Of a DNA stretch of 30,840 nt, positions 4,193 to 27,001 are shown piece after piece. Position numbers and translations under genes: made by a program. Source of the stretch: a virus; the IMG/VR virus record IMGVR_UViG_3300033141_006302, positions 1-30,840 of that record; one strand, written 5' to 3'. The notes beneath the pieces were generated by a model, which saw only the letters and a list, made by a program, of their open reading frames with translations, was not told where the DNA came from and did no database searches. Within the stretch, counting starts at the first letter, position 1. Each line of letters opens with the position of its first letter.

Positions 4193-4222
4193 TTGGCGTT
4201 AATTTTGACAATATGTTATAAT
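4193..4222 (+). promoter_or_regulatory. sigma70-type promoter with extended -10
   Basis: TTGGCG (4193-4198), an 18-base spacer and TGT-TATAAT (4214-4222). The start would fall near 4229, giving a short leader of about 16 bases before the ATG at 4245. A perfect TTGACA at 4205-4210 is only 6 bases from the -10, too close to be its -35. It stands in the only sizeable gap of this region, after a probable terminator. Confidence 0.6.
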
Positions 4223-4244
4223 ATAAACTAGAGTTCATAAAACC

Positions 4245-5919: not shown

Positions 5920-5928
5920 TGATATAAT
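5920..5928 (+). promoter_or_regulatory. extended -10 promoter for the gene at 5936
   Basis: TGA-TATAAT, 7 bases before the ATG at 5936, in a 53-base gap. A weak TTTTCA lies at about -35. The gene start has no Shine-Dalgarno, so a leaderless or near-leaderless mRNA is predicted. Confidence 0.6.
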
Positions 5929-5935
5929 ATAGTTA

Positions 5936-10876: not shown

Positions 10877-10882
10877 TATAAT
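10874..10882 (+). promoter_or_regulatory. extended -10 promoter for the leaderless gene at 10889
   Basis: TGA-TATAAT overlapping the last codons of the fibre-like gene and 6 bases before the next ATG. The stretch TGATATAATATAG is identical to that at 5920-5932. No Shine-Dalgarno precedes the ATG. Confidence 0.6.
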
Positions 10883-10888
10883 ATAGCT

Positions 10889-19487: not shown

Positions 19488-19782
19488 CAGCATCCCGCTA
19501 GCTGAGAAAGAACCCGAACGGGTGGAAATCAGCCCCGGAAGGTTTTTTACGGAACTACGGGAAATTTCGGTGGCTTGTTTGCAAAACGCCAATGCCTATC
19601 TTGAAAAATATCGCTATTGGGAGAAGCGGTTGCACGCCTGCAACTTGCTCTATCAGAAGGCCCGCAGTTTGAAAGAAAATGGCTTTAGAATTAAATATTT
19701 CAGGGACGAGGAAGGCAACCTCACCCTTGAAGCCGTGGAGAAAGGAGAAGCTGGTTTTATCGGTTTAGCAAAACATGAATAA
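19471..19782 (+). CDS. hypothetical protein (103 aa)
   Basis: ATG with AAAGGA 9 bases upstream. Predicted mostly helical (RFFTELREISVACLQNANAYL, EKYRYWEKRLHACNLLYQKA) with a short strand pair (FRIKYFRDEEGNLTLEAVE). No motif or membrane segment. It overlaps the metallophosphoesterase by 8 bases, suggesting coupled translation. Confidence 0.6.
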   Translation: MTERLNSIPLAEKEPERVEISPGRFFTELREISVACLQNANAYLEKYRYWEKRLHACNLLYQKARSLKENGFRIKYFRDEEGNLTLEAVEKGEAGFIGLAKHE

Positions 19783-20749
19783 AGAAGCGGCAATTTTCTA
19801 TCCGGACGGCACTTCGGCAACGAGGGCCGAGGTTAGACGGAAATTGTTGGCTGAAGAATTAACCACTCCTTCGTTTTTGACTCCCCTTCCTGAACGAAGG
19901 GACTTCACCGAATGGCAACCCATTATGGCCCGGCGAAAGAAAGAATACAAAGAGCTACTTCAAATCCCCGAATTAGTCCATATTGAAATTGCCACCGAGC
20001 GTCCCATTCTTATTGGCTTGTTTGGTGATGTTCACGCCCTTCATCCGGAAGTAAACCTTGACCGCTTTGGCAAAGACATTGATTTGGTTAAGTCGGTTAA
20101 TGGCTATTTCATGACCTTTGGCGATTTAACCGACAGCATTTTCTGGCAACAATCACCCCAGTTGGCCTCAGAAGAAGAGTCAATCCTTTACATGAGATCG
20201 GCTTTAAAATACATGGCCGAGGGCAACCATTTGCTTTGTAGCTGGCTTGGCGACCATGACGGCTGGGTTTATGACAAACACGGCGGCCACCTTCTCTACC
20301 ATGACTTCTGGGAGAAGTTCAACGCCCATTTACTGGACGGCGTTTCTTATGTTGATCTTGGCTTGTTTAACAAATATGGGGCTAGAAACTACGCCATTAT
20401 CGGAAGCCATCAACACAAGGGTTTTTCAGTCTATAATGACGCTCACGCCGCTTGGCGACAACAATTAGACGAGGCCAATACTTCCCGGAGCATTGTTTCC
20501 ATTACTGCCCATAAGCATACTAAGGCTCATCTAACTCAAGTTCGGAAGGTTTTTGGCGGAGACGAAAGGATAATACACGCCATCAGCTTGGGGACTTATA
20601 AGGAGTCGGACCGATATTCAAGGAAACATGGTTGGCCTCGCAAGGGTGAGGAAACGGCAAGCGCCTTTGGATTAGTTTATTATCCCGATAAAGATAGAGT
20701 TGAGGTTCATTGGAATTTGGAACAGGCGATTGAAAGTTTAACGAGATAG
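19775..20749 (+). CDS. calcineurin-like metallophosphoesterase
   Basis: 324 residues. The metal-binding motifs are in order: GDVH (Asp85, His87), GDLTD (Asp117), a GNHD-type site read here as GDHD (160-161), GSHQH (210-214) and AHKH (245-248). These ligands hold two metal ions that hydrolyse phosphoesters; family members act on nucleotides, DNA or proteins. The N-terminal 70 residues are an extra helical extension. The Asn of the GNHD box is Asp, which may alter activity. It is the last gene before the non-coding island. The natural substrate cannot be deduced. Confidence 0.75.
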   Translation: MNKEAAIFYPDGTSATRAEVRRKLLAEELTTPSFLTPLPERRDFTEWQPIMARRKKEYKELLQIPELVHIEIATERPILIGLFGDVHALHPEVNLDRFGKDIDLVKSVNGYFMTFGDLTDSIFWQQSPQLASEEESILYMRSALKYMAEGNHLLCSWLGDHDGWVYDKHGGHLLYHDFWEKFNAHLLDGVSYVDLGLFNKYGARNYAIIGSHQHKGFSVYNDAHAAWRQQLDEANTSRSIVSITAHKHTKAHLTQVRKVFGGDERIIHAISLGTYKESDRYSRKHGWPRKGEETASAFGLVYYPDKDRVEVHWNLEQAIESLTR

Positions 20750-20766
20750 GGATTGCCCAACAACTT

Positions 20767-20853
20767 GGAAGCGGAAAACGATTCGCTGGCGTGACCCTCC
20801 CCGGGCGAGAGAGAGTTAGGTCAGCAGGAGTTCGCTGCTCCTCGCTTCCACCA
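20767..20853 (+). other. tRNA-like element with acceptor stem, T-arm and CCA
   Basis: 87 bases starting 18 bases after the metallophosphoesterase stop. GGAAGCG (20767-20773) pairs perfectly with CGCTTCC (20843-20849), followed by A and CCA as in a tRNA. Just inside, AGGAG-TTCGCTG-CTCCT forms a T-arm with TTCG but C instead of the usual A58. Between them TGACC/GGTCA (20792-20796 with 20819-20823) makes a long arm. I could not build a normal D-arm or an anticodon loop with U33, so it is not a working elongator tRNA as drawn. It may be a tRNA mimic, a decayed tRNA or an attachment-type remnant. Confidence 0.4.
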
Positions 20854-20903: not shown

Positions 20904-20918
20904 TTTTTTGACAAGGTA

Positions 20919-20927
20919 TGGTATAGT
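20919..20927 (+). promoter_or_regulatory. extended -10 promoter of the regulatory leader
   Basis: TGG-TATAGT. A start 7 bases downstream falls at about 20934, the first base of block A of the structured leader. The TTGACA at 20908-20913 is only 8 bases away and cannot act as its normal -35, but may be part of an operator or of an overlapping signal. Confidence 0.5.
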
Positions 20928-20933
20928 AATAGT

Positions 20934-21019
20934 GCGGTTGGTTAGCGAACACTGCAAGTCCCTTTGTTTGGCGGGCAACCGCGATGCAGTGTTCGGCTCG
21001 CCAAACAAGGGGATTTTTT
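20934..21019 (+). promoter_or_regulatory. structured 5' leader with interlocked helices A-B-C-A'-B'-C'
   Basis: Three blocks are followed in the same order by their complements. A GCGGTTG (20934-20940) pairs with CAACCGC (20976-20982). B CGAACACTGCA (20946-20956) pairs with TGCAGTGTTCG (20985-20995). C CCCTTTGTTTGGCG (20960-20973) pairs with CGCCAAACAAGGGG (20999-21012), 14 pairs with one G-U. All three helices cross one another. C' contains AAGGGG, the Shine-Dalgarno 7 bases before the ATG at 21020, and is followed by ATTTTTT, so helix C could hide the ribosome site or act as a terminator. Helix B competes with it in folding order. No known riboswitch class is recognised. Confidence 0.6.
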
Positions 21020-21259
21020 ATGAAGGAAGTTAAAAACATCACCCTCTTTGTAAAAAACGGCAAAGAGGTAAAGAGATACTTGACCCACTCTTATCGCCGT
21101 TTTTATGCCAAATTGCGTGCCTGTTCCGGACAAGGTTATCGTGTTCTAATCAAGTATTGCCATCCCGAAGAATATGCTTACTTGCCAACCAATGACAGTG
21201 GGTGGTATACTAACAAGGAGAAGCTTCTTAAAACAGCAAGAGCTTTCTTAGAAAGATGA
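21020..21259 (+). CDS. hypothetical protein (79 aa) under the structured leader
   Basis: ATG with AAGGGG 7 bases upstream; an in-frame ATG at 20984 would start inside the leader helices and has no ribosome site. The product is small and basic: strands (VKNITLFVKNGKEVKRYL), a helix (SYRRFYAKLRACSGQGY) and a strand RVLIKYC, ending in a helix (KEKLLKTARAFLER). The pattern recalls a small RNA- or protein-binding alpha/beta fold, but no family is recognised. Its isolated, elaborately regulated position makes it a likely regulator or host-directed protein. Confidence 0.6.
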   Translation: MKEVKNITLFVKNGKEVKRYLTHSYRRFYAKLRACSGQGYRVLIKYCHPEEYAYLPTNDSGWYTNKEKLLKTARAFLER

Positions 21260-21372
21260 AAAAACTCATTCAGAACATTACTTTAATCGGAGAGACCCTG
21301 ACCGCGCGGGGGGATGGGAGCGCGGTTGACCGACCGACCGACCGACCGACGGGAATAGCGACGAATTTTTAA
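21256..21372 (+). CDS. possible small overlapping ORF (38 aa)
   Basis: The ATG overlaps the previous stop (ATGA). It begins MKKLIQNITLIGETL, resembling a real N-terminus, then runs through the GC hairpin and the GACC repeat, which gives VDRPTDRPT, and stops within the terminator stem-loop. It may be translated by coupling, but the second half is dictated by repeat DNA. Confidence 0.25.
   Translation: MKKLIQNITLIGETLTARGDGSAVDRPTDRPTGIATNF
21301..21326 (+). other. GC-rich hairpin with G-run loop
   Basis: ACCGCGC pairs perfectly with GCGCGGT; the 12-base loop is six G, AT, GGG, A. It lies directly before the GACC repeat and upstream of a terminator. Role unknown. Confidence 0.45.
21328..21350 (+). 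repeat. GACC tetranucleotide tandem repeat
   Basis: Five GACC units and a final GAC, 23 bases. A four-base unit changes reading frame with each gain or loss, so it would act as a phase-variable switch if the overlapping small frame is translated. It may also be a protein-binding array. Confidence 0.8.
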
Positions 21373-21389
21373 TTTTCGTCGTTTTTTTT
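21359..21389 (+). terminator. strong intrinsic terminator
   Basis: CGACGAA/TTCGTCG stem of 7 pairs with a 9-base AT loop, followed by eight T. It closes the short unit made of the leader and the gene at 21020. Confidence 0.75.
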
Positions 21390-21449
21390 ATACCCGATGA
21401 CCTGAACAGGATTTCAGGAGGAGGGGAGACAAAAAAGACTATTCCCAGA

Positions 21450-21468
21450 GGGAGGGAGGGAGAGAGGG
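21450..21468 (+). other. G-quadruplex-type motif
   Basis: GGGAGGGAGGGAGAGAGGG: four G3 runs with loops of 1, 1 and 5 bases, fitting the standard G3N1-7 rule. Flanking AGACT and AGTCT could clamp it in a hairpin loop. Confidence 0.6.
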
Positions 21469-21474
21469 AGTCTA

Positions 21475-21528
21475 AGCTCTTTGGCCTTGGACGCAATCTA
21501 GAAACGCCGAAGGCACAATAAAAGAGCT
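21475..21528 (+). ncRNA. long bulged hairpin, possible small RNA
   Basis: P1 AGCTCTTT/AAAGAGCT (21475-21482 with 21521-21528), P2 GCCTT/AAGGC (21484-21488 with 21510-21514), P3 GG(A)CG/CGCC (21489-21493 with 21505-21508) and an 11-base loop CAATCTAGAAA. The 3' side carries a 6-base ACAATA internal loop. It is followed 13 bases later by a strong terminator, as in a small RNA gene. Expression is unproven. Confidence 0.4.
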
Positions 21529-21541
21529 GGCGGGGTAGTGG

Positions 21542-21582
21542 AAAAAGTGGCAAGTCCCATATTCCCTCTTGCCACTTTTTTT
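21542..21582 (+). terminator. strong, probably bidirectional intrinsic terminator
   Basis: A 13-pair stem (A5-GTGGCAAG with CTTGCCAC-T5) around a 13-base loop, with a run of seven T on the plus strand and a matching U-tail on the minus strand. It separates the non-coding island from the early operon. Confidence 0.85.
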
Positions 21583-21641
21583 CTTGGTTGGTGTTTGTCT
21601 TTTTAAAAAACATTTGCCTATTTACCTTGCCTTTTTGGGGC

Positions 21642-21671
21642 TTGACATGGTGTGTTGTTTTGGGGTAGTAT
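21642..21671 (+). promoter_or_regulatory. early-operon promoter
   Basis: TTGACA (21642-21647), an 18-base spacer, TAGTAT (21666-21671). The predicted start falls within a base or two of the ATG at 21681, so the first gene of the early operon may also be leaderless or nearly so. This is the only promoter here with a consensus -35 at normal spacing. Confidence 0.65.
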
Positions 21672-21908: not shown

Positions 21909-22090
21909 TGGATTTTAGCAAGGCTCTTGACCATCTTGTTTGGTATATGATTTTCCGCTTTGGAAAAAGGGATTTCAATATTAGAAGCGCGGAACATTTA
22001 CAGGAAATTATTATGGGTGATTTATGGACGGCCGTTGAGAAAATTAAGCAGTTTGATGTTGAGTATTTTGAGAAGTTGAAAAATGAATAA
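21908..22090 (+). CDS. hypothetical early protein (60 aa)
   Basis: Starts at the TAATG junction. Small, helical and aromatic (SKALDHLVWYMIFRFGKRDF), ending with charged residues. It overlaps the nuclease gene by 8 bases. No family recognised. Confidence 0.55.
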   Translation: MDFSKALDHLVWYMIFRFGKRDFNIRSAEHLQEIIMGDLWTAVEKIKQFDVEYFEKLKNE

Positions 22091-23105
22091 ACTATCTTGG
22101 TCTTTTGCTAATATTTGGAATGAATCGCTTGCTTGCCGGGAGGAGCGCAAGCTGGAGCCGCGAGAGAGAATTTGGGCCTCAGAGCTTGGGGGGCCGATGC
22201 TTGATCGGTGGTACAAGATGAAGGGGGTAAAACCGAGTAATCCGTTTGGTTTTCGGCCCTTGCGCAAGTTCGAGGCGGGGAATCTTTTTGAGTGGATTAC
22301 AGCGGTGGTTTTGAATCGTGCGGGCATTTTAATCGAGCAACAACGATGGCTGCGGTACCAGTACGATGGTCTTTTACCAGTCACTGGTCGGCTGGATCAC
22401 TTGGCTGGTGGCAAGCCGGATTGGGGGAAGGCGGAGGCCGCGTTTACCAATGGCGAGTTTCCAGAATTTATTTCCCGGGCAGCGGCGGCGATCGTGAAGC
22501 ATTTTAGAACAAAACACCCCAATGGATTAAGAAGAGTAGTTTTAGAAATAAAGAGTGTTGGTTCGAATCTGTTTCATCGTTACGATGTTTTTCGAATGGC
22601 CGATCCTCGCCACCGCTTGCAGCTTTTTCACTATCTTAAAGCGGGCAACTTCAAGGAGGGGCACTTGGTTTATGTTTCTAAGGATGATCTTTGCTTGGTG
22701 GAAATCGGCGTATTTGCTAATCCCGCGCTTGAGGAGGCCTATCGAAAGGATATTGAGCAGATAACCGGTTGTCTTAAGAGTAAGACGCCACCGGAAAAGG
22801 AGAAGCCGATTGCCTTTGATGATGTGGCGGGAAGATTTTATGTCAACTGGAAAGTCAGTTGTAGTCAATATCTTACGAAGGCCTATGGTTTTCCTAGCCG
22901 GGCTAATTTTGAGGCTAGGTATAAGTCGAGGGTGGCTCGGTGGAATCGGGTTTTGGGACGGCTGGCGTCAGGAAAGAAGATGACTGATGATAATAAGGAG
23001 GCAATGGAGGAAATGCGTGCAGAGTTTCCGGATTTGGATGAATTGTTGGAAATAGTCAAGAAGCGACAAAAAGTAAAGGAGGCGTACGACGCGAAGAATA
23101 CATGA
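22083..23105 (+). CDS. PD-(D/E)XK nuclease (Cas4/RecB-like)
   Basis: 340 residues. The nuclease motifs are in order: FEAGNLFEWITAVVL (an E-x-G-x3-E helix, about 63-77), GRLD with Asp105, LEIKS with Glu155 and Lys157 (the ExK), and HRLQLFHYL (the Q-x3-Y helix, about 177-185). This is the layout of RecB/Cas4/lambda-exonuclease-type folds, which cut or resect DNA using Mg2+. No four-Cys iron-sulphur cluster is seen, unlike true Cas4. Next to an SSB-like protein it probably serves in phage recombination or replication. Confidence 0.7.
   Translation: MNKLSWSFANIWNESLACREERKLEPRERIWASELGGPMLDRWYKMKGVKPSNPFGFRPLRKFEAGNLFEWITAVVLNRAGILIEQQRWLRYQYDGLLPVTGRLDHLAGGKPDWGKAEAAFTNGEFPEFISRAAAAIVKHFRTKHPNGLRRVVLEIKSVGSNLFHRYDVFRMADPRHRLQLFHYLKAGNFKEGHLVYVSKDDLCLVEIGVFANPALEEAYRKDIEQITGCLKSKTPPEKEKPIAFDDVAGRFYVNWKVSCSQYLTKAYGFPSRANFEARYKSRVARWNRVLGRLASGKKMTDDNKEAMEEMRAEFPDLDELLEIVKKRQKVKEAYDAKNT

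Positions 23106-24902: not shown

Positions 24903-24903
<1 letters not shown>
24754..24903 (+). CDS. small basic helical protein (49 aa)
   Basis: ATGA overlap with the upstream gene and TAATG overlap with groES. The product MNDLLDRLVKVRKDLRRAKK continues as a Lys/Arg-rich helical hairpin. Unknown function; position suggests co-expression with the chaperonins. Confidence 0.55.

Positions 24904-27001
<2,098 letters not shown>

Follow-up and report, generated by a model that had tools for sequence, protein, structure and literature searches.

A leader of 86 nt immediately 5′ of a 79-aa orphan ORF may act as a co-transcriptional attenuator of that gene, with dual control over transcription and translation, and it is towards this reading that we lean, if only somewhat. 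The leader lies in a 30.8-kb IMG/VR virus contig (the whole stretch of DNA that was analysed, hereafter the window), whose main genes are on the plus strand. An exonuclease-like gene (19775-20749) precedes it and a Cas4-like gene (22083-23105) follows the ORF (21020-21259, plus strand), whose 5′ end the leader abuts. Three blocks and their complements occupy 20934-21016 in the order A-B-C-A′-B′-C′. These crossing blocks are best read as a succession of alternative folds, not as a single knotted fold. The leader probably belongs to a familiar general class of on/off switch, here in a new setting and with strands arranged unusually.

Architecture of the leader

The original prediction described three ordered blocks, each followed by its complement at a nearly constant distance, and this arrangement is present on the plus strand, with offsets of 42, 39 and about 40 nt. 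Block A (GCGGTTG, 20934-20940) is matched over 7 bp by A′ (CAACCGC, 20976-20982), and block B (CGAACACTGCA, 20946-20956) over 11 bp by B′ (TGCAGTGTTCG, 20985-20995). The C/C′ helix has 14 bp, its core at 20959-20972 containing 14 bases and one G-U; the full helix, between C (20956-20976) and C′ (20996-21016), runs to 21 consecutive pairs with G-U counted. C and C′ are the 5′ and 3′ arms of a hairpin that could serve both as terminator and to sequester the Shine-Dalgarno sequence. The elements claimed at its end are all in place: AAGGGG lies within C′ at 21007-21012, ATTTTTT includes the T-run TTTTTT at 21014-21019 (the putative terminator U-tract), and the ATG follows at once at 21020.

A′ and B′ account for almost all of the 19-nt loop of the C hairpin, so that hardly any loop base lacks a partner upstream. 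B abuts C and B′ abuts C′, neither junction having a linker; by pseudoknot geometry, the full B and C helices should therefore be sterically incompatible, and would have to alternate or shrink. Block B together with 20939-20942 and 20944-20946 gives an extended helix of 17 bp, the candidate antiterminator, of which B is the 5′ arm and B′ the 3′ arm. Its added pairs, 20944-20946:20996-20998 and 20939-20942:21000-21003, reuse the 3′ end of block A (20939-20940) and fall on a contested stretch, 20996-21003, which is both the 3′ end of the antiterminator and the first 8 nt of C′. B and C are alternatives, in the manner of an antiterminator that invades C′ and a terminator. The suggestion that this topology has no parallel among described bacterial leaders loses its force here, because antiterminator/terminator pairs alternate and need no single knotted structure.

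The whole leader folds at -44.3 kcal/mol (z = -5.8 versus shuffles). With the C hairpin given, 5e-5 of shuffles have an 11-nt stretch of the 23-nt 5′ segment that is perfectly complementary to the loop, and 14 of the 30578 23-mers in the window pair equally well with the loop plus C′. Only four crossing pairs of at least 8 bp occur in the window, that of the leader being the strongest, and 40 shuffled windows contained none with both helices of at least 10 bp. In 820 kb of shuffled DNA the weaker helix of the best crossing pair reached -18.4 kcal/mol, compared with -21.9 in the leader; no crossing pair there had both helices below -18.4 kcal/mol, the two in the leader being at -21.9 and -39.7. 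B/B′ and C/C′ exceed chance. A/A′ alone, with p = 0.004-0.02 for a pair picked post hoc, is near chance, and because of this, and because A takes part in the early fold only, the case for a role of block A is weak.

Predicted order of folding along the transcript

The MFE profile was computed for the growing RNA with the start taken as 20934; such profiles give an order of folds and are not kinetics. The order found is A:A′ (RNA ending at 20980-20992), then extended B:B′ (20993-21009), then C:C′ (21010 on). The A:A′ stage has an energy of -19.0. B:B′ begins at -24.6 and goes to -32.4 through pairing with 20996-20998 and 21000-21003, reaching its 17 bp by invasion of the first 8 bases of C′. 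C:C′ takes over with -32.6 at 21010 and stands at -44.3 at the end of the leader. In the ensemble, the share at 21010 is 0.54 for B and 0.46 for C, and at 21011 it is 0.99 for C. A polymerase paused on TTTTTT would expose the RNA to roughly 21010-21011, by what is established for intrinsic termination.

Blocking of B brings C:C′ forward to 21006 and blocking of the loop to 21002, while blocking of A and B together forces C. Co-transcriptional folding and these blocking tests support the proposal that helix C could block translation, end transcription or do both, and that helix B, formed earlier, would oppose it. In shuffle controls that kept C and randomised the 5′ segment (or this segment and the loop), 1.5-4% had no C pairs up to 21009; since this share of the controls delays C as long, timing alone is only modest evidence, and the exact complementarity is the better evidence. 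The barrier on the nested path from the ON to the OFF fold is high (saddle -3.5 from -32.1), pseudoknotted intermediates being outside the model.

Gene, promoter and the proposed mechanism

The ORF behind the leader has a coding log-odds of 0.137, versus -0.34 and -0.43 for the two remaining frames of that strand, and its AAGGGG pairs with the anti-Shine-Dalgarno at -7.6 kcal/mol (median at random sites, -3.3). The 79-aa protein is basic, and a mixed alpha-beta fold of the order beta-beta-alpha-beta-beta-alpha is predicted for it; the best of five single-sequence AlphaFold models has a pLDDT of 85.7 and a pTM of 0.74, the other models being at 59-74. The protein has no match in Pfam, NCBIfam, PHROGs, PDB sequences or phage genomes, and a fold search with the model gave none at E <= 0.001.

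A possible promoter on the plus strand at 20908-20927 consists of TTGACA (20908-20913) and the extended -10-like TGGTATAGT (20919-20927). Their spacing of 8 nt is unlike that of a standard sigma-70 promoter. A start at the first base of block A had been predicted; a standard -35/-10 scan with 16-18 nt spacing returned no promoter at the leader, and only TGGTATAGT and TTGACA suggest a start near 20934, from which we infer transcription. The non-standard spacing is common to two intergenic regions of the window, 4205-4230 and 20908-20932, where TTGACA is followed after only 6-8 nt by TATAATATA / TATAGTAATA.

On the attenuator reading, A:A′ would pair first on the emerging RNA. Once B′ is exposed, B:B′ would grow to 17 bp and capture the first 8 bases of C′, giving the antiterminator and the ON fold. 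If the polymerase passes before C:C′ wins, the gene would be transcribed and its Shine-Dalgarno left unpaired. Release of 21010-21011 would favour the 21-bp hairpin C:C′; formed with the polymerase on TTTTTT it would end transcription, and formed later it would hide the Shine-Dalgarno (the OFF fold). A slowed polymerase would tip the leader to OFF, as would a protein or RNA that occupies B or the loop, the gene product itself being a possible candidate; the existence of such a regulator, like termination at C:C′, is inferred. A coding ORF that begins right after the T-run and a strong Shine-Dalgarno within C′ argue for this reading. Against it stand the 19-nt loop, which is long for an intrinsic terminator, the non-standard promoter, the high nested barrier from ON to OFF, and the lack, in the collections searched, of any relative of leader or gene that could show covariation.

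A more ambitious version, which we regard as unlikely, makes the 86 nt a three-stage strand-exchange relay of A:A′, B:B′ and C:C′. Each new block would displace the previous helix, and the last would both end transcription and hide the ribosome site; the leader would then belong to a broader class of phage leaders, so far undescribed, whose terminator loops are complementary to elements upstream.

Control of translation alone has a distinctly small probability. C:C′ would terminate poorly, and its slow formation would leave a short time for translation before the Shine-Dalgarno is hidden, like the metastable leaders of phages and type I toxins. This would fit the location of the Shine-Dalgarno in C′, the clear dominance of C:C′ as the final fold (-44.3) and the high nested barrier, which would prolong the ON fold; but TTTTTT right behind the hairpin fits termination equally well. 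Moreover, metastable control of translation has been shown for toxin mRNAs (PMC6733600), whereas the prediction for the 79-aa protein is a soluble, mixed alpha-beta fold and not a small membrane toxin.

Search for relatives and a kissing-loop RNA of distant phages

Searches with the 79-aa protein in IMG/VR, phage records and 48 related records returned no relatives, nor did those by way of the neighbouring exonuclease and a 1663-aa protein, and the exact B...B′ pattern had no match in IMG/VR. A search with the Cas4-like gene gave 80 loci, none with a homologous leader or 79-aa gene. A crossing repeat at L035 lies within an apparent HNH coding region, as read from the sequence, and was rejected as chance. 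At L027:5385-5471 (plus strand), adjacent crossing repeats B-C-B′-C′ lead directly into an ATG, some 530 nt 5′ of the Cas4-like gene; this site has no T-run and was rejected as a full counterpart, being kept only as a possible analogue. At L022:1523-1654 (plus strand), a promoter TTGACA...TATAAT is followed by a long leader hairpin with internal alternatives TTGGTAAGG / CTTACCAA / CCTTACCAA and then by TTTTTTTATG of a 268-aa HTH_36 protein. The element resembles an attenuator that would control a replication-type gene and, like that at L027, is a possible analogue; it was set aside as a counterpart, for at 1540-1654 it has the strong hairpin, T7 and ATG before the HTH_36 protein, but its alternatives are nested and not crossing.

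Scanning of the Cas4-like loci for the architecture of the leader also found a separate conserved phage RNA of about 92-96 nt (for instance L049:8401-8494, minus strand), in which the loop of a terminator pairs with the loop of an upstream hairpin. It occurs in at least 27 distinct versions (at L049, L036, L042, L044, L047, L048, L050, L054, L058-L060, L062-L064, L066, L070, L072, L078, L080, L081, L084, L085, L087, L089, L091, L094, L095, L101, L103 and L107-L109) and in many contigs is on the strand opposite the Cas4-like gene. Its order is promoter, hairpin P1 (loop K), hairpin P2, terminator hairpin P3 (loop K′) and T-run, so that the K/K′ pairing crosses P1 and P3. The promoter is of the TTTG / TAnnTTTG kind, which is known from Bacteroidota. 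In an alignment of 27 distinct sequences to a model from which K/K′ was left out, seven of the eight K/K′ pairs were changed on both sides, and 94% of the cells pair; over the entire structure the share is 96%, versus 38-49% with the partners slid. Seven loci tested, some of them members of the 27-sequence set, gave no Rfam match. Three unrelated contexts are found behind the T-run: a 239-aa winged-helix protein, with its ATG immediately after the T-run, an 81-85-aa protein, or no ORF directly behind.

The covariance model R1 of this RNA had no match in the window at E <= 0.1, and the RNA is not homologous to the leader. The leader is like it in that the loop of the terminator hairpin is complementary to an upstream segment, and in that the T-run is often followed at once by ATG; the RNA differs in sequence, and its partner is itself a hairpin loop, so that the pairing is compatible with the terminator. 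The finding shows that, among phages with a distant relationship through the Cas4-like gene, terminators are in use whose loops pair with RNA upstream. Study of the leader has thus led to a well-supported conserved phage RNA, a terminator hairpin that kisses an upstream hairpin through co-varying loops.

Other explanations and the surrounding DNA

These distant phages bear on another account, to which we assign a low probability: the element would be an independent small RNA (about 85 nt) that has a promoter and a terminator of its own and acts on another RNA through its loop, the ORF being read only by leakage. The leader is indeed flanked by promoter-like DNA and a terminator-like end, and the distant phages conserve a unit of promoter, structured RNA and terminator, sometimes with no ORF directly behind. 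But the Shine-Dalgarno and start codon sit at the end of the element with single-base precision, and the ORF appears to be coding; and the window holds no complementary target of more than 10 nt, and nothing above chance.

Control by an antisense RNA on the pattern of pT181 or pIP501, in which an RNA transcribed against the leader would bind A/B and so impose the terminator, is improbable. The logic and the dual control are shared with the pT181 leader, and a block of A and B forces C; however, a sigma-70-type scan of the minus strand gave no promoter-like site directed into the leader, and the gene is not recognisable as a replication initiator. No more credible is the view that the element is a strong terminator of the usual sort, ending transcription from upstream, or a hairpin in the DNA, and that B/B′ is due to chance or a relic of duplication, since the rarity of B/B′ given the hairpin (p = 5e-5) and the position immediately 5′ of a Shine-Dalgarno and ATG tell against it, despite the long hairpins with T-runs nearby (21357-21392 and 21542-21580) and the comparable crossing repeats found by coincidence at some natural coding loci (L008, L035).

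These two strong terminator-like hairpins belong to a non-coding stretch (21260-21670) that also has a gaccgaccgacc repeat and may encode a small RNA. On the other side of the leader, 20766-20853 has a cloverleaf-like fold (-38.1 kcal/mol, z -2.6) with the closing pair TGGAAGCG/CGCTTCCA and the 3′ end ACCA; neither ARAGORN nor Rfam calls a tRNA there. Elsewhere in the window, exact copies of TATAATATAG at 1771-1780, 5923-5932 and 10877-10886 precede three start codons by 2-3 nt; with one mismatch allowed there are 5 matches versus 1.6 expected, and the sites are possibly phage promoters for leaderless transcripts. The phage carries GroES-like and GroEL genes (24903-26769), and in a host search its GroEL had only 42-54% identity to scattered bacterial lineages.

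Comparison with known systems

The nearest known system appears to be the attenuator in the repC leader of the Staphylococcus plasmid pT181, in which the ribosome site lies within the 3′ half of the terminator (PMC5435934). In both, a 5′ leader can fold either as a terminator or as an antiterminator, each excluding the other. As in pT181, a terminator-like hairpin and U-tract (C:C′ with TTTTTT at 21014-21019) precede the gene (ATG 21020), an exclusive antiterminator would form earlier (by prediction only, the 17-bp B:B′ until 21009), and the ribosome site is in the 3′ arm of the terminator (AAGGGG, 21007-21012, in C′). The pT181 antiterminator takes the 5′ part of the terminator stem, whereas that of the window leader takes the beginning of the 3′ arm (20996-21003) and, unlike in pT181, encloses the 5′ arm of the terminator in its loop. 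In pT181 a cis-antisense RNA decides, while a scan of the window leader gave no sigma-70-like antisense promoter; and pT181 controls the replication initiator RepC, while the window leader precedes a 79-aa orphan. The leader would work like a pT181-type attenuator, yet we do not file it as a member because the antiterminator arm and the gene differ and an antisense RNA was not found.

The repR leader of pIP501 has four elements in the order A-B-a-b, the same crossing order as in the window leader. There, attenuation by RNAIII sets the expression of a gene of a mobile element (PMC4981023), and the window leader may likewise attenuate such a gene; pIP501 differs in its 329-bp leader, in its antisense RNA and CopR, and in the replication initiator downstream. 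An anti-antiterminator, antiterminator and terminator logic is shared with the protein- or tRNA-controlled attenuators (pyr and trp of Bacillus, T-box; PMC7430163). Unlike these, the window leader has no known binding motif or Rfam family match, scoring nowhere above the gathering threshold in Rfam 15. It is also unlike the mRNAs of type I toxin-antitoxin systems, as the 79-aa basic protein, predicted to be mixed alpha-beta, is not a small hydrophobic toxin and the sigma-70-type scan gave no antisense promoter. If the leader works as predicted, it would be a small natural RNA switch with dual control, carried by a phage that has few recognisable relatives, and the geometry of its antiterminator would be unlike that of the plasmid attenuators employed in RNA engineering.
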